Shown here: positions 10,799 through 21,221 of the stretch, piece after piece
Numbering within the stretch: the first letter of the stretch is position 1
How the letters are laid out: the number at the start of each line of letters is the position of its first letter
Origin: a virus
DNA length: 31,916 nucleotides
Reading direction: 5' to 3' (one strand)
Virus record (IMG/VR): IMGVR_UViG_3300037452_000113
Coordinates: 1-31,916 of that record
Made by a program: the position numbers and the translations under genes
The notes under the pieces: generated by a model
The model's input: only the letters and a program-made list of their open reading frames with translations
What the model was told of the DNA's origin: nothing
Database searches by the model: none

Positions 10799-11532
10799 CG
10801 GCGCTAAGCCCGAGGACTTGGCTTTATGTCGGCGGCGGCGCGTTGATTCTTTACCTCGGCGTCCATCTCTACAACGCCGGGATAACCCACGAGCGCGACA
10901 AGGCGAGGGCCGATGTGGTAAACGAGGGCGCGGCGGAACTGAAAAAGCAACGCGACGATTTTCAAGCCGCCATGAACCAAGCCCTCGACCGACAGCATTC
11001 GGCGGAAGTCGCGGCGACGGCGGCGGCGGCGAAAGTCGTCATCCTCGACACTCGAACGGCGGCGGCGCAAACCGCGCAAACCGCGACCGACAAGACGGTC
11101 GCCGCCATGCCCGACCCGCAGGTATTCGGCGACATCGTGCGCCGCATCAACCGCCGACGGCCCGAGGACGCCGCCGCCGCGTTTTACCCGGACGAGTTGC
11201 GCGTCATCGACTCGACCCTCGCGGATGCGCCGTACGATAAAGAACAATTGCAGACGGCGAACGATAAGGTCGCGGCGCTTACCGACAAATCAACCGCCGA
11301 CGACGCCGAGGTCGGGGCCTTGAAGGACCAAAACGCGACGGCGCTTTCGTACGCGCAAGATTTGCACGAGCAATACGTTCTCGCTTACAACGCCGCGCAA
11401 CCTCACGTTTCACTGTTCGTTCGGATTATCACACTCGGATTAAAGCGCCCGAAGAAACTCAACCTCACGCCGCCGGAGTCGATGACGCCGCCCGGCAAGC
11501 CAAAGGCGGACCATGGCAAACCGAAGGCTTGA
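10783..11532 (+). CDS. Rz-like inner membrane coiled-coil protein (putative i-spanin)
   Basis: 249 residues from the ATG at 10783, with GGAG at 10771-10774. It overlaps the endolysin gene. A single N-terminal membrane segment (TWLYVGGGALILYLGVHLY) is followed by a long Ala/Gln/Lys/Asp-rich helix with coiled-coil character (about residues 35-100), a middle linker, a second helix and a Pro/Lys-rich tail (TPPGKPKADHGKPKA). This topology and the position after the endolysin fit an inner-membrane spanin. No separate lipoprotein o-spanin is seen, and 249 residues is longer than lambda Rz, so a different envelope role remains possible. Confidence 0.6.
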   Translation: MFAFLAALSPRTWLYVGGGALILYLGVHLYNAGITHERDKARADVVNEGAAELKKQRDDFQAAMNQALDRQHSAEVAATAAAAKVVILDTRTAAAQTAQTATDKTVAAMPDPQVFGDIVRRINRRRPEDAAAAFYPDELRVIDSTLADAPYDKEQLQTANDKVAALTDKSTADDAEVGALKDQNATALSYAQDLHEQYVLAYNAAQPHVSLFVRIITLGLKRPKKLNLTPPESMTPPGKPKADHGKPKA

Positions 11533-16487: not shown

Positions 16488-16513
16488 AAACGGCGAGCCG
16501 CGAGGCCCGCCGT
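16484..16513 (-). terminator. Terminator for the leftward zinc-ribbon gene
   Basis: Read on the minus strand, ACGGCGgGCC and GGCtCGCCGT form a GC-rich stem (plus coordinates 16490-16513) with a short loop, followed by TTTTCATTT. It lies just beyond the stop codon at 16531 and could also slow the convergent plus-strand operon. Confidence 0.7.
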
Positions 16514-16530
16514 CGTGAGGCCCGAGGGCC

Positions 16531-16827: not shown

Positions 16828-16833
16828 GTCGCG

Positions 16834-16930
16834 AGAATACCAAACCGCTTAGGTTATTGGGAAGATGCCCGAAGTTACCCGAGCGAGGTTACCGACGGCA
16901 TCTTGGAAAGCAAACCGCTTAGGTTATTAT
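16834..16930. promoter_or_regulatory. Bidirectional operator with two leaderless promoters
   Basis: Two direct copies of CAAACCGCTTAGGTTATT (16841-16858 and 16911-16928) flank an inverted block: AGATGCC (16863-16869), GTTACC (16874-16879), GGTTACC (16887-16893), GGCATCT (16897-16903). Rightward: TTGGAA (16903-16908), 16-bp spacer, TATTAT (16925-16930), 6 nt, ATG. Leftward: TATTCT, 6 nt, ATG at 16827. Symmetric binding by one regulator would control both genes. Confidence 0.8.
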
Positions 16931-16936
16931 CGGGGC

Positions 16937-17305
16937 ATGGAAAACCTACTCACTCTCGAAAGTCCTGAAATTGTTAACTTCCTTGCCGCATGGGTTCCGC
17001 CCTTCGGTCACGCGACGCGAGCCGTCGAGCGCCGGAAATACATCGCCCTCGATTACGACAACGGTCCCGATTCTTGGTCGGGTTGCTTCCTTGTTGACCG
17101 TGTGACTCATCGCATTTACAGCATCAAGGGTTATGGGGTTCGCGGGTACGACCGGGGCACGGTCGAGGAAATGACGACCAAATGCACGAGGGCGCATTAC
17201 GAGCGCGAGTCAAAGGCGGCGACTCGGGCGCACTATCAACGCGAAGCCGCCCGCGAGTTGCCGGACGATTGCACGACGACCATCGACGGCGACCCCGGTT
17301 TGTGA
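16937..17305 (+). CDS. Hypothetical protein, first gene of a leaderless unit
   Basis: 122 residues. The ATG at 16937 lies 6 nt after the -10 TATTAT, so the mRNA should begin at the start codon. The core (RKYIALDYDNGPDSWSGCF, then VTHRIYSIKGYG and RGYDRGT) is a compact beta domain rich in Tyr and Gly. The C-terminus is helical and basic, with the repeated RAHYxRE pattern (RAHYERESKAATRAHYQREA). It forms a single-gene unit closed by the terminator at 17323. I do not recognise a family. Confidence 0.7.
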   Translation: MENLLTLESPEIVNFLAAWVPPFGHATRAVERRKYIALDYDNGPDSWSGCFLVDRVTHRIYSIKGYGVRGYDRGTVEEMTTKCTRAHYERESKAATRAHYQREAARELPDDCTTTIDGDPGL

Positions 17306-17322
17306 AGGCCGGGCAGAACCGG

Positions 17323-17356
17323 GGGCCGGGCCTAGTCGCCCGGCCCTTTCGCTTTT
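17323..17356 (+). terminator. Rho-independent terminator
   Basis: A perfect 9-bp stem GGGCCGGGC (17323-17331) and GCCCGGCCC (17338-17346) with a 6-nt loop is followed by TTTCGCTTTT. It isolates the unit at 16937-17305 from the next promoter, which begins only a few bases downstream. Confidence 0.85.
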
Positions 17357-17359
17357 CCG

Positions 17360-17419
17360 GGTAACCTCGGACCGGGGTTACTTCGGTTACATTGTGAACC
17401 AATGCGCTTAGGTTATTAT
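17360..17419 (+). promoter_or_regulatory. Operator and leaderless promoter of the second unit
   Basis: Three heptamers, GGTAACC (17360-17366), GGTTACT (17376-17382) and GGTTACA (17385-17391), precede TTGTGA (17392-17397), a 16-bp spacer and TATTAT (17414-17419) within GCGCTTAGGTTATTATC. The ATG at 17426 follows after 6 nt. Layout matches the other two rightward units. Confidence 0.8.
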
Positions 17420-17425
17420 CTAGAC

Positions 17426-17701
17426 ATGGAAAAACATCATCACAGTTTCAAACATAAAAACGGCACATCGGCGGTGTGTGAATGCGGCGCAACCCGATGC
17501 AAGGGCACAATTCAACAAGTGGGTTATTCGACCGGGAACACTTGGAATAGTCAATGTCGCCGCGCCGCATTGCCGGGCGCTTCGTTTTGCGCTAGATGCG
17601 CCGCCGCGAGAATTACCCTCGACCACCGGGTTAATTGTCCAGCGAACGCGGGCGACCGTTGCACTTGCGGCTTTGTCGCCGACCAAAAGGCGGCGTCCTA
17701 A
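17426..17701 (+). CDS. Cys-rich zinc-finger-like protein
   Basis: 91 residues, leaderless start. There are ten Cys residues in groups: VCECGATRCKG, SQCRRAALPGASFCARCAAA and NCPANAGDRCTCG. An N-terminal HHH segment adds possible ligands (MEKHHHSFKHK). The pattern suggests two or three zinc sites, as in small phage-encoded or bacterial zinc-ribbon proteins. The stop codon overlaps the next ATG by one base. No enzymatic motif is seen, so binding to nucleic acid or a host protein is the likeliest role. Confidence 0.7.
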   Translation: MEKHHHSFKHKNGTSAVCECGATRCKGTIQQVGYSTGNTWNSQCRRAALPGASFCARCAAARITLDHRVNCPANAGDRCTCGFVADQKAAS

Positions 17702-17931
17702 TGACGGACATCTCGAAGGCGGCGGCGGCGATGGGACGGCGAGGCGGTTCGGTGACCTCGCCGCGCAAGGCGAAAGCGGTCCGGGAAAACGGCAAACTCG
17801 GCGGGCGTCCAATCAAATATTGCCCGGCGTGCATCGAGGAACTCGACGAGCAAATCGCGCTCGCGAACGGAACGTGCAACGGTTGCGGTTCTTATTTTGC
17901 GAATGCGGTCAAATCTTCGGAGGTTTCCTAG
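17701..17931 (+). CDS. Small basic protein with GRRGG and CxxC motifs
   Basis: 76 residues from the ATG at 17701. The N-terminus, AAAAMGRRGGSVTSPRKAKA followed by VRENGKLGGRP, is a recurring basic Gly-rich pattern seen in many small bacterial and phage proteins of unknown role. The C-terminus carries YCPACIEEL and CNGCGSYF, a four-Cys zinc site. A nucleic-acid-associated role fits the charge and ribbon but is inferred. A GTG-start secreted protein gene follows one base after the stop. Confidence 0.65.
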   Translation: MTDISKAAAAMGRRGGSVTSPRKAKAVRENGKLGGRPIKYCPACIEELDEQIALANGTCNGCGSYFANAVKSSEVS

Positions 17932-18471
17932 GTGAAAAGGTCAATCGCAATTCTTATCCTCGGCGTCGCCGCACTCGCGGCGGCAAAAGACAAACCCGGT
18001 TACACGGTGACGACCGACCGTTTTACAGGCGTGACCAAGGTCGAGATGCTCCCGGTCGTCGTCGCCAATCCCAATAACCCGATGCGGGGGACCATTACAA
18101 CTCTTGCGATGTCGCTCGCGTATTTCAACGACGACGCCGAGGGCCGGGTCCTCTTGGTCGTGACATGCGTCGCCGATAATTGGCGGTTCCTCGATGGAGC
18201 CGATATTCGTTTGCTCGCCGACGGGACGCCCATCGACCTCGGACACTTCGAGGAACATAAGGGCGAAGTGGGCGAGCGGTTCGGCGACGTTCGCACGTTC
18301 GAAAAACTCGGCGGGTACGTTCCCCGCGCAACCTTCGACCGAATGGTCGCCGCGAAGAAACTGGAAATCAAAATCGGGCAGTTCGAGGGCGGGGTCAACG
18401 ACAAGGGCCTCGACAAGATGCGGGCGTTTGCCGGAGCGATGGCGACGGTCCCGGCGAAGGCGGACCGATAA
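17932..18471 (+). CDS. Predicted exported protein, unknown function
   Basis: 179 residues from a GTG with CGGAGG 10 nt upstream. The N-terminus (KRSIAILILGVAALAAAKDK) is a signal peptide with probable cleavage after AAA. The mature part is beta-rich, with a conserved-looking core LLVVTCVADNWRFLDGADIR and later FERLGG-like helices. No Cys pair or catalytic motif is seen. Export of a phage-coded protein in a separately regulated cassette suggests an effect on the lysogen's envelope, such as lysogenic conversion; this is inference. Its stop overlaps the next ATG by one base. Confidence 0.65.
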   Translation: MKRSIAILILGVAALAAAKDKPGYTVTTDRFTGVTKVEMLPVVVANPNNPMRGTITTLAMSLAYFNDDAEGRVLLVVTCVADNWRFLDGADIRLLADGTPIDLGHFEEHKGEVGERFGDVRTFEKLGGYVPRATFDRMVAAKKLEIKIGQFEGGVNDKGLDKMRAFAGAMATVPAKADR

Positions 18472-18650
18472 TGCATCGTGACCCGGTAAAAAGCGAAAGC
18501 GAGCACAGGCAGGACGAATGCATCCATCGCCTCGAACCCGTGAACCCGGAGAAAGAACACGGGTTCCGATGGCATTGTGTGAAGTGCGGAAAATGGCTGT
18601 ATCGAAAAAACGGGACTGTCATTGCGGCGCGAGCGTCTCGCCCCCGGTAA
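18471..18650 (+). CDS. 59-residue protein with CxxC, stop embedded in an operator
   Basis: The ATG at 18471 overlaps the upstream TAA, and the frame runs to TAA at 18648-18650. The peptide has ECIHRLEPVNPEKEHGFRWH followed by CVKCGKWLYRKNG, so CxxC plus nearby Cys/His could bind zinc. The stop codon lies inside the GGTAACC heptamer of the next operator, so the unit ends exactly where the next control region begins. Function is unknown. Confidence 0.6.
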   Translation: MHRDPVKSESEHRQDECIHRLEPVNPEKEHGFRWHCVKCGKWLYRKNGTVIAARASRPR

Positions 18651-18704
18651 CCTCGGACCTGGTTACTAACGGCATCTTCAAAACCTATACGCTTAGGTTA
18701 TTAT
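18646..18704 (+). promoter_or_regulatory. Operator and leaderless promoter of the third unit
   Basis: GGTAACC (18646-18652) and GGTTACT (18661-18667) form an inverted pair, followed by GGCATCTT as in the 16897 region. Then come TTCAAA (18677-18682), a 16-bp spacer and TATTAT (18699-18704) within CGCTTAGGTTATTATC. The ATG at 18711 follows after 6 nt. Confidence 0.8.
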
Positions 18705-18710
18705 CTAACC

Positions 18711-19487
18711 ATGGCAAACACAAACGCAACCCGAGACGGTTCAAATTTTGAGGTTCTCTTGAAAACTGTAGTCGCAATTCTCGCCTTTATCATCGGCCTC
18801 GCCGCACTCGCGGCGACGGCTCAAGTCGTAACTATCCCGGAAGGAACCGCCGTTCGCGTACGTTTGGCGGAAACCATCGGGAGCGCGTCGGCTCATGTCG
18901 GCGACGCGGTTCGAATGGAAATTCTCGACGACGTGCAAGTCGGCGGCTCGACGGTCATCCGCCGGGGGTCGTTGGCAATCGGCGAAGTCACGGTCGCGGA
19001 AGAGAAAAAGCGAATGGGCCGGGCCGGTAAAGTGGCGTTCGCCCTCGACTACCTCGTCGCCGCCGACGGCTCGAAAATCGCCGCGAGCGCGACGCGCAAA
19101 CAAAAAGGCTCGAACTCTGCCGGGACCATCACGACGGGCATCGTCGTTAGCGCGGTTGTATTCGCGCCCGTCGCTCCCCTGTTCCTGCTAAAACACGGCA
19201 AGGACACGGCGGTCCCGTTCGGAACCATCTTCCCCGCGTTCACGACCGCCGACGCTCCGGTTAACGTCGGCCCGGTCGCGGTCGCGGTTGCTCTCCCGGT
19301 CGCGGTTGCTCCGCGAGCCGTCCCGCAATCGCCGACCTCAACCGAGCACGCCGTCGAGGGTTACACGTTGTCGGGTCCCGGCGCGGGTTCGACGACTTAC
19401 ACGGTCCCCGATTCCGAAATGAGCGTCGGGGATGCAGCACGAGCGGCGCGGGCGAAGAAAGCCGCCAAGGAAGCGGGCAAACAATGA
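18711..19487 (+). CDS. Exported protein resembling an acidobacterial envelope family
   Basis: 258 residues, leaderless start. After an 18-residue lead comes a hydrophobic export segment (VVAILAFIIGLAALAATAQV). The mature part has IPEGTAVRVRLAETIGSASA, GGSTVIRRGSLAIGEVTVAE, GKVAFALDYLVAADGSKIA and a second hydrophobic stretch VVFAPVAPLFLLKHGKDTAV. I recall this order (PEGT..VR, IPRG, RMGRAGK, DY, HGKDT.I..GT) from secreted or membrane proteins common in Acidobacteriota. The C-terminus is an Ala/Val/Pro-rich linker and a basic tail. Finding it in a phage cassette suggests capture from a host. Biochemical role is unknown. Confidence 0.7.
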   Translation: MANTNATRDGSNFEVLLKTVVAILAFIIGLAALAATAQVVTIPEGTAVRVRLAETIGSASAHVGDAVRMEILDDVQVGGSTVIRRGSLAIGEVTVAEEKKRMGRAGKVAFALDYLVAADGSKIAASATRKQKGSNSAGTITTGIVVSAVVFAPVAPLFLLKHGKDTAVPFGTIFPAFTTADAPVNVGPVAVAVALPVAVAPRAVPQSPTSTEHAVEGYTLSGPGAGSTTYTVPDSEMSVGDAARAARAKKAAKEAGKQ

Positions 19488-19690: not shown

Positions 19691-19710
19691 AACAGCGCCG
19701 GGAAAATACG

Positions 19711-19745
19711 AACGGGACCCGCGACGAACGGGTCCCGTTTTATTG
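19711..19745 (+). terminator. Rho-independent terminator closing the leaderless cassette
   Basis: A perfect 10-bp stem AACGGGACCC (19711-19720) and GGGTCCCGTT (19730-19739), with a 9-nt loop, is followed by TTTATTG. A second hairpin, GCCCGGT/ACCGGGC (19748-19765), lies directly downstream without a T tract. Confidence 0.88.
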
Positions 19746-19869: not shown

Positions 19870-20063
19870 AGGCCCGCGTTATCGTCGTCAATCTCCGGAC
19901 CGTGTTCCTCGTCTATTGCCCGGAGTGTCACTCGGTCGTGCGGGCCGAAAGTTTGCTCGACGCCGAGACGGTTCGCGGGCGTCACGTCTGCCCGGAGCCG
20001 CCGCCGCGCTTATCGCTTAGGCTTCCGCCGCCTCGTATCCGTCGCGTTTTCTGCGTGTACTAG
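19866..20063 (+). CDS. Small CxxC protein overlapping the MarR gene
   Basis: 65 residues with VFLVYCPECHSVVRAESLLD near the N-terminus and a later VCPEP, giving three Cys plus His as possible zinc ligands. The C-terminal third is Pro/Arg-rich, and its codons lie in the antisense overlap (20010-20063) with the last 17 codons of the MarR-type gene. The first 45 residues look coding; the tail may simply reflect the overlap. Moderate confidence. Confidence 0.5.
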   Translation: MKARVIVVNLRTVFLVYCPECHSVVRAESLLDAETVRGRHVCPEPPPRLSLRLPPPRIRRVFCVY

Positions 20064-20588
20064 AATTGCCTCGCACATCCCGGTAAAAGTCTGCATTTCG
20101 CTTTTGGTCAAGGGCGCGAAAATGTTTTTATTCGCGGCGTCCTTGGTTCGTTCCGAACCCGCGATAAGTTTTCGCCCTTTTGTCGTCGGCACGACGAGGG
20201 CCTCGCGGCGGTTCTTCGGGTTGCGGACCCGTGCAACGAGTTTTCGTTGTTCGAGCCGGTCGATGATGAGTACCATCACGTTCGGGTTAATGTTGAGGGC
20301 GTCGGCGAGCCGCAATTGCGAATACTTGCCCTCGATTGCGGCGCGGATAATCCAGAGGTCCCGAACGCTTACTCCGACCTCTTCGATACAACGCCGTTCG
20401 GCGCGGGCGGCGATGAGTTCGAGCGCGAGCGCGGCGCGGAGCACGGGCGCGTCGCGCAAGCCCGGCGCTTTCAGCATGGCAATAATGTCGTGATGCGCCA
20501 TTATTCGGAAAATACTATCATCAATGGGGTTAAAACTCGAAAACTGCGGCATTCGTTCCGAAAATTGGAACAGGCTTGCATCGAGCAT
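20010..20588 (-). CDS. MarR-family transcriptional regulator
   Basis: 192 residues on the minus strand. The ATG at 20588 is supported by GGAG 9 nt upstream; TTG at 20603 and ATG at 20501 are alternatives. After about 70 residues the winged helix appears: VSVRDLWIIRAAIEGKYSQL, RLADALNINPNVMVLIIDRL and RKLVARVRNPKNRREALVVP, then TTKGRKLI. This is the MarR order of recognition helix and wing. MarR proteins are dimeric repressors, often ligand-responsive. Next to the integrase and opposite the leaderless cassette, it is a candidate regulator of either. Confidence 0.82.
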   Translation of the reverse strand: MLDASLFQFSERMPQFSSFNPIDDSIFRIMAHHDIIAMLKAPGLRDAPVLRAALALELIAARAERRCIEEVGVSVRDLWIIRAAIEGKYSQLRLADALNINPNVMVLIIDRLEQRKLVARVRNPKNRREALVVPTTKGRKLIAGSERTKDAANKNIFAPLTKSEMQTFTGMCEAILVHAENATDTRRRKPKR

Positions 20589-20828: not shown

Positions 20829-20876
20829 ATTTCCGAACGGGTCGGGGTTCGGCCCCGAGTATGTACGCGTTTTATC

Positions 20877-20957
20877 TTCGCTGGATTCAAAAGCGCCACA
20901 TCTTCGGGCCTGTTCGGGCGGGAACCCCGGCTCCAATTTTGAGATGAATCCAGCGAA
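20877..20957. repeat. 13-bp inverted repeat upstream of the integrase
   Basis: TTCGCTGGATTCA (20877-20889) is the perfect reverse complement of TGAATCCAGCGAA (20945-20957), with 55 bp between the arms. The arms share the GAATCCAGC core with three downstream direct copies. Confidence 0.9.
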
Positions 20958-20971
20958 CGGCAAGCGTTTTC

Positions 20972-21191
20972 CGAATCCAGCATATTGGGCAACCCGTTCG
21001 GGAAACAATTGCAAGGGGAGCGCCGGGCGGTTCGTCGCCGTCCGGCGTTCTTGGGCTTTGTTCTTTTCCCGAACGGCATCCGCGAGCGGTTCCCCGAATC
21101 CAGCGACACGTAATTTTCGGGACGCCGCCGCCTTATCCTCGTGCCATGTTCGGACGTTCGGAAATCTGGTACAGTCGTTTCGAATCCAGCG
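20972..21191. repeat. Direct CGAATCCAGC(G) repeats before the integrase
   Basis: Copies occur at 20972-20981 (CGAATCCAGC), 21095-21105 and 21181-21191 (both CGAATCCAGCG). Together with the inverted pair at 20877/20945 this makes five sites of one motif within 315 bp, suggesting arm-type integrase or directionality-factor binding sites. Confidence 0.8.
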
Positions 21192-21221
21192 GGGCCGATG
21201 TTGCCGGGAAAGGCGGCGACA

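Follow-up and report, generated by a model that had tools for sequence, protein, structure and literature searches.

Dispersed phage operator systems, such as those of P1 C1 and the mycobacteriophage stoperators, repeat one operator at several sites; phage morons usually have unrelated promoters, and the lambda cI mRNA made from PRM is a leaderless phage mRNA. Acidobacteriota phages have received little study, and we found none with mapped promoters. Leaderless genes with a TANNNT -10 element next to the open reading frame (ORF) have been described in Deinococcus-Thermus, Actinobacteria, and Acidobacteria (PMC3160421, PMC12340547). Zheng et al. reported leaderless genes in three of three Acidobacteria genomes (mean, 13.3%) and named lambda in their background on leaderless mRNA (PMC3160421).

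Here, we analyzed the whole 31,916-nucleotide stretch (i.e., "the window") of the virus contig IMGVR_UViG_3300037452_000113 (31.9 kb; G+C content, 59.6%). Taken as a whole, its accessory block is probably best explained by a duplicated leaderless promoter cassette with operators in a moron block. The operator sequence is repeated at several phage sites, as in P1 C1 and the stoperators; however, the sites in the window number only four and are clustered, no repressor is known for them, and their sequence is unrelated. Leaderless transcripts, as in lambda cI, are predicted for the window, whereas lambda cI is a single gene with different operators. One cassette serves four units here, in contrast to the unrelated promoters of morons. 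The likeness to phage morons (e.g., PMC7067206) lies in accessory genes that stand outside the core modules and have their own promoter and terminator. As in the TANNNT leaderless genes, the -10 element lies a few bases before the ATG, a Shine-Dalgarno (SD) sequence is absent, and the RNA is expected to begin at or close to the start codon; those genes represent many unrelated promoters, whereas the window has one cassette in four copies, with operator boxes common to them and with -35-like hexamers. A leaderless layout is ordinary in Acidobacteriota and moron genes under shared phage operators are known, while the multiplication of one cassette into a small phage regulon is newer.

The window phage and its accessory block

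The left part of the window carries siphophage-type tail genes, and genes for a YqaJ recombinase and an XRE protein are also present (other features are listed in Table 1). No close record was found in the phage and plasmid collections searched, and a search of the genome contigs collection with the tail protein gave no match. Among sampled genomes of three phyla, the best prophage match of the tail protein was in Acidobacteriota (E = 2e-169; Verrucomicrobiota, 1e-33; Myxococcota, 9e-15). The window represents a temperate soil phage, probably with an Acidobacteriota host, the phylum being assigned solely through this prophage similarity.

The genes at 16.5 to 19.7 kb probably form a moron (accessory-gene) block of this temperate phage, with its own promoter and terminator-like sites, noncore genes, and a gene set that varies between relatives. 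Terminator-like sites flank the units. In IMG/VR, one match to the unit A protein and none to the unit C protein were found, and the unit A protein had no match in 199 Acidobacteriota genomes. The genes at 17932 and 18759 have signal-peptide-coding DNA in common (repeats; positions 17932 to 18815), which suggests that they encode related exported proteins.

Table 1. Features of the window discussed in the text
Feature	Positions	Strand	Remark
Peptidase M15 endolysin gene	10310		
Accessory block	16.5-19.7 kb		
A-minus intrinsic-terminator-like site	16489-16514	-	consensus match; after A-minus gene
A-minus gene, 98 aa	16531-16827	-	Cys-rich; ATG 16827, leaderless layout; weak DksA-type zinc-finger match only (PHROG phrog_54, E=0.0083)
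A-minus -10 and 6-nt gap to ATG 16827	16828-16838	-	TATTCT 16833-16838
Box pair	16873-16893		AGTTACC 16873, GGTTACC 16887; common to both divergent promoters
Unit A core promoter	16903-16936	+	TTGGAA-16-TATTAT-6-ATG; 15-mer 16917-16931
Unit A gene, 122 aa	16937-17305	+	ATG 16937 most plausible start
Intrinsic-terminator-like site	17321-17348	+	between unit A and promoter B
Unit B boxes	17360-17391		GGTAACC 17360, GGTTACT 17376, extra GGTTAC 17385
Unit B core promoter	17392-17425	+	TTGTGA-16-TATTAT-6-ATG
Unit B, four genes	17426-18650	+	17426-17701, 17701-17931, 17932-18471, 18471-18650; no Pfam match above cut-off
Unit C boxes	18646-18667		exact inverted repeat GTAACC-N8-GGTTAC
Unit C core promoter	18677-18710	+	TTCAAA-16-TATTAT-6-ATG; spacer palindrome AACCTATACGCTTAGGTT 18682-18699
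Unit C gene	18711-19487	+	probable start TTG 18759 (signal peptide), not ATG 18711
Unit C second gene, 68 aa	19484-19690	+	Cys-rich
Terminator-like site	19710-19740	both	after unit C
Phage MarR-family gene	20010-20501	-	Pfam PF01047, E=1.1e-6
Tyrosine integrase gene	21.1-22.5 kb		

Four copies of a promoter cassette

The 15-mer GCTTAGGTTATTATC occurs exactly three times in the window (16917, 17406, and 18691), and the gap from TATTAT to ATG is 6 nt at the ATG codons 16937, 17426, and 18711. A copy with three mismatches lies at 16847; in total, four matches with ≤3 mismatches were found versus 0.24 expected, and 0 of 100 shuffles reached four. A fourth cassette, with ATG 16827, is divergent and lies on the minus strand (TATTCT-cgcgac-ATGGAAAAC). 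Its upstream region holds GGTAAC-N4-GGCATCTT, as in the other cassettes, and its boxes are shared by A-minus and unit A. The spacer between the -35-like and -10 elements is 16 bp in units A, B, and C (promoter scan and alignment by ATG) and 18 bp in the divergent copy (distances read by hand), while the gap from -10 to ATG is 6 nt in all four.

Matches to GGTWAC/GTWACC number 10, overlaps included, in 261 promoter bases versus 0.13 expected under a first-order Markov model, the copies not being independent. As read by hand from the alignment, box 1 is centered at -61 to -63 from the ATG in all four cassettes; box 2 lies at -47, or at -49 in A-minus, and stands 13 bp from the -35 in four of four. 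The spacer palindrome of unit C recurs with one mismatch in B and two in A. All cassettes have an operator-like sequence in common, made up of GGTWAC boxes and a spacer repeat. When A, B, and C are compared, most of the identity falls within the boxes, the -10, and the ATG, and it drops outside them. The four cassettes look like duplicates of one cassette of ~75 bp (three rightward and one divergent) and, being related by duplication, are not independent observations. The initial annotation had described a three-unit family with this core, its 6-nt gap, -35-like hexamers 16 bp upstream of the -10, and pairs of GGTWACC-type heptamers; all of these are present at A, B, and C, the core far above chance, and the divergent copy had been overlooked.

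From this architecture, we infer the start sites, the binding proteins, and expression as follows. One cassette would have been multiplied into four copies within the block, and a host sigma-70-type RNA polymerase would start at the A of each ATG or beside it. The mRNAs of A, A-minus, and B would be leaderless and translated via the normal leaderless route of the host. A repressor would act on the spacer operator, and another factor would bind the upstream boxes; since these sit upstream of a weak -35, an activator is the likelier candidate.

Start codons and ribosome sites

SD pairing at the cassette ATGs (-3.6 to -4.1 kcal/mol; -3.6 at each of 16937, 17426, and 18711) ranks with the weaker values in a set of 37 starts, and many genes range between -6 and -12 kcal/mol, in agreement with the earlier remark that the unit ATGs lack an SD while clear ribosome sites occur elsewhere. 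RNA folding of the first 64 to 80 nt revealed nothing unusual; A, B, and C were slightly less folded than shuffles. Relatives allowed start codons to be compared for A, C, and the L319/L321 cassette genes; none was found for B or A-minus. A relative of unit A in L123 (residues 28 to 68 matched at 56%) has a similar N-terminal length and an SD, which supports ATG 16937 as the start. Likewise, a relative of the L319/L321 cassette gene in L413 has a matching N terminus and an SD, supporting the ATGs of L319 and L321. The same genes start behind a ribosome site in some phages and have a leaderless layout in others.

Unit C differs. Its relative in L321 (54% identical) starts at ATG 12368 with GGAGG and a signal peptide, and this start aligns with TTG 18759 of the window, which is preceded by GAGG and lies 16 codons downstream of ATG 18711 (SD pairing, -6.8 at TTG 18759 versus -3.6 at ATG 18711). 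Translation of unit C is therefore likely to start at the TTG; the same RNA start would then yield a leader of ~48 nt with a ribosome site, which the relative and the GAGG make the more likely arrangement. Leaderless translation, initially proposed for all three units, is retained as a likely prediction for A, to which A-minus is added, and for B, but not for C. Given the start of unit C, the fixed position of the ATG is argued to be partly a by-product of duplication.

The units could instead be served by transcripts from further upstream or by late-gene read-through, with SD-independent initiation on leadered mRNA. The upstream genes run in the same direction as the units, and at least unit C, whose promoter overlaps the 3' part of unit B, may also lie on a longer transcript. 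We nevertheless consider this unlikely for the family, since a terminator-like site precedes promoter B, read-through from the left is impossible for the divergent A-minus, and A, B, and C carry sigma-70-like hexamers. Under the preferred reading, that of a duplicated leaderless cassette, the block offers clean promoters for which RNA is predicted to start at the ATG.

The 6-nt gap in Acidobacteriota

In Edaphobacter, TAnnnT stands at a gap of 6 from the 5'-most ATG 16 times versus ~3.5 per other gap (Poisson, ~1e-6), and two further Acidobacteriota genomes gave 4 versus ~0.9 and ~0.8. No gap-6 peak was found in G134, one sampled Acidobacteriota genome (2 of 109 ORFs), and gap-6 enrichment was absent in 71 other tail-protein relatives from IMG/VR (6 versus 5.7). 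The enrichment of TAnnnT-6-ATG in sampled Acidobacteriota genomes means that the window phage is not alone in following the gap rule; as judged from these counts, the leaderless layout is typical of the host, and the 6-nt gap itself is unremarkable.

The exact 15-mer followed by ATG was not found in IMG/VR. With ≤2 mismatches, the 15-mer gave one hit, without an ATG, in 396 Acidobacteriota genomes, versus four for the reversed control. Two looser IMG/VR patterns were discarded: TTAGGTTATTATN6ATG was too loose, its hits lacking window relatives save isolated weak protein matches, and GGCATCTT-N20-TATTAT-N6-ATG gave one hit, a contig of 40% G+C content without window homologs.

Conserved geometry and a different spacer sequence in relatives

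L319 and L321 have tail, endolysin, MarR, and integrase genes collinear with those of the window (tail protein identity, 70% and 50%). Each carries one related cassette (TACCCT/TACCTT-6-ATG) in the same slot, before the MarR and integrase genes, with a largely different gene set from that of the window. A TANNNT -10 stands 6 nt before the start codon in the four window cassettes and these two relatives, and six of six have C at -1 followed by A at +1. L319 and L321 differ very little over the ~30 bases that precede the ATG, whereas positions -110 to -40 have drifted. The upstream alignment of GTGACTTCAGGCACTTTG in L319 with GTAACTTCGGGCATCTTC in A-minus suggests that the upstream sequences of the relatives' and window cassettes are related.

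When the motif spacing was sought in related genomes, as the initial annotation had suggested, the spacing was present and the 15-mer was absent. Since TAnnnT-6-ATG is kept while the 15-mer is replaced, it is the geometry that is conserved. The spacer of L319 and L321, where the proposed repressor would bind, holds an 18-bp near-palindrome (GTGCAGGCCCGCCTGTAC) that also occurs in the promoter of the phage's own MarR gene. In the 44.9-kb G414 (the record behind L318), whose cassette and MarR site are the same as those of L319, the operator GTGCAGGCCCGCCTGTWC has only two sites (≤3 mismatches), at the leaderless-layout gene and at MarR. MarR is likely to be the regulator of the accessory gene in L319 and L321, where its operator connects a phage regulator gene to an accessory gene. 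In the MarR promoters of these relatives (L319, 19880; L321, 14280), the operator is followed by TATCCT 11 nt before the ATG, an arrangement conserved in the two phages. The more distant relative L256, a phage contig in an Acidobacteriota genome, has no repeated cassettes; genes with TATTAT-6-ATG and TATAAT-6-ATG lie at its positions 11463 and 19300 (minus).

The cassettes might also be young duplicates without selection, their constant spacing being uninformative about function. The 20 bp upstream in B and C are 90% identical, ATGGAAAA was copied as well, and unit C appears to retain ATG 18711 unused. This is rather unlikely, however, given that cassette identity declines outside the boxes, -10, and ATG, that the box-to-box and divergent spacer distances have changed while those from box 2 to the -35 and from the -10 to the ATG have not, and that L319 and L321, with tail proteins 70% and 50% identical to that of the window, keep the geometry and a conserved core. 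We return to the duplicated, functional cassette and tentatively suggest, as a possibility short of an expectation, a regulon built by copying one leaderless, doubly controlled cassette before unrelated accessory genes, the operator in the spacer being exchangeable: the relatives keep the -10, the 6-nt gap, and the ATG and carry their own MarR operator. If so, accessory genes could be rewired to a new repressor with translation untouched.

Candidate regulators in the window

The window MarR gene lies on the strand opposite to that of the L319/L321 MarR genes, and its product is only 30 to 34% identical to theirs. Its upstream region contains a different palindrome, GTTCCGAAAATTGGAAC (20555 to 20571), and no site matching the cassettes was found near the gene. 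With no site in common, MarR is not supported as the regulator of the window cassettes, nor is the earlier suggestion that it binds the heptamers. What remains of the proposed regulon under one regulator is a family of promoters that precede accessory genes and have operator-like boxes in common; the sequence linked neither the window MarR nor the XRE gene to it. A TATTTT hexamer lies 7 nt upstream of the ATG of the MarR gene itself (minus strand; 20501 to 20575), where SD pairing is very weak (-1.8), and this gene may also be leaderless.

As a refinement of the preferred explanation, it is improbable that the inverted repeat centered near -55, formed by the boxes at approximately -62 and -47, binds a phage zinc-finger activator like Ogr/Delta of P2, possibly one of the several small Cys-rich proteins encoded in the block: the repeat position and weak -35s fit an activator and one such protein has the marginal DksA-type match, but no protein of the block matched the Ogr/Delta family in Pfam or PHROGs, and the half-sites are unlike those of Ogr.

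Near the integrase gene, AATCCAGC occurs five times upstream of or at its start (20880 minus, 20947, 20974, 21097, and 21183; region 20870 to 21200), and a similar ACCAGCG cluster lies at the integrase position of L319 and L321. The AATCCAGC repeats are possible arm-type sites of the integrase.
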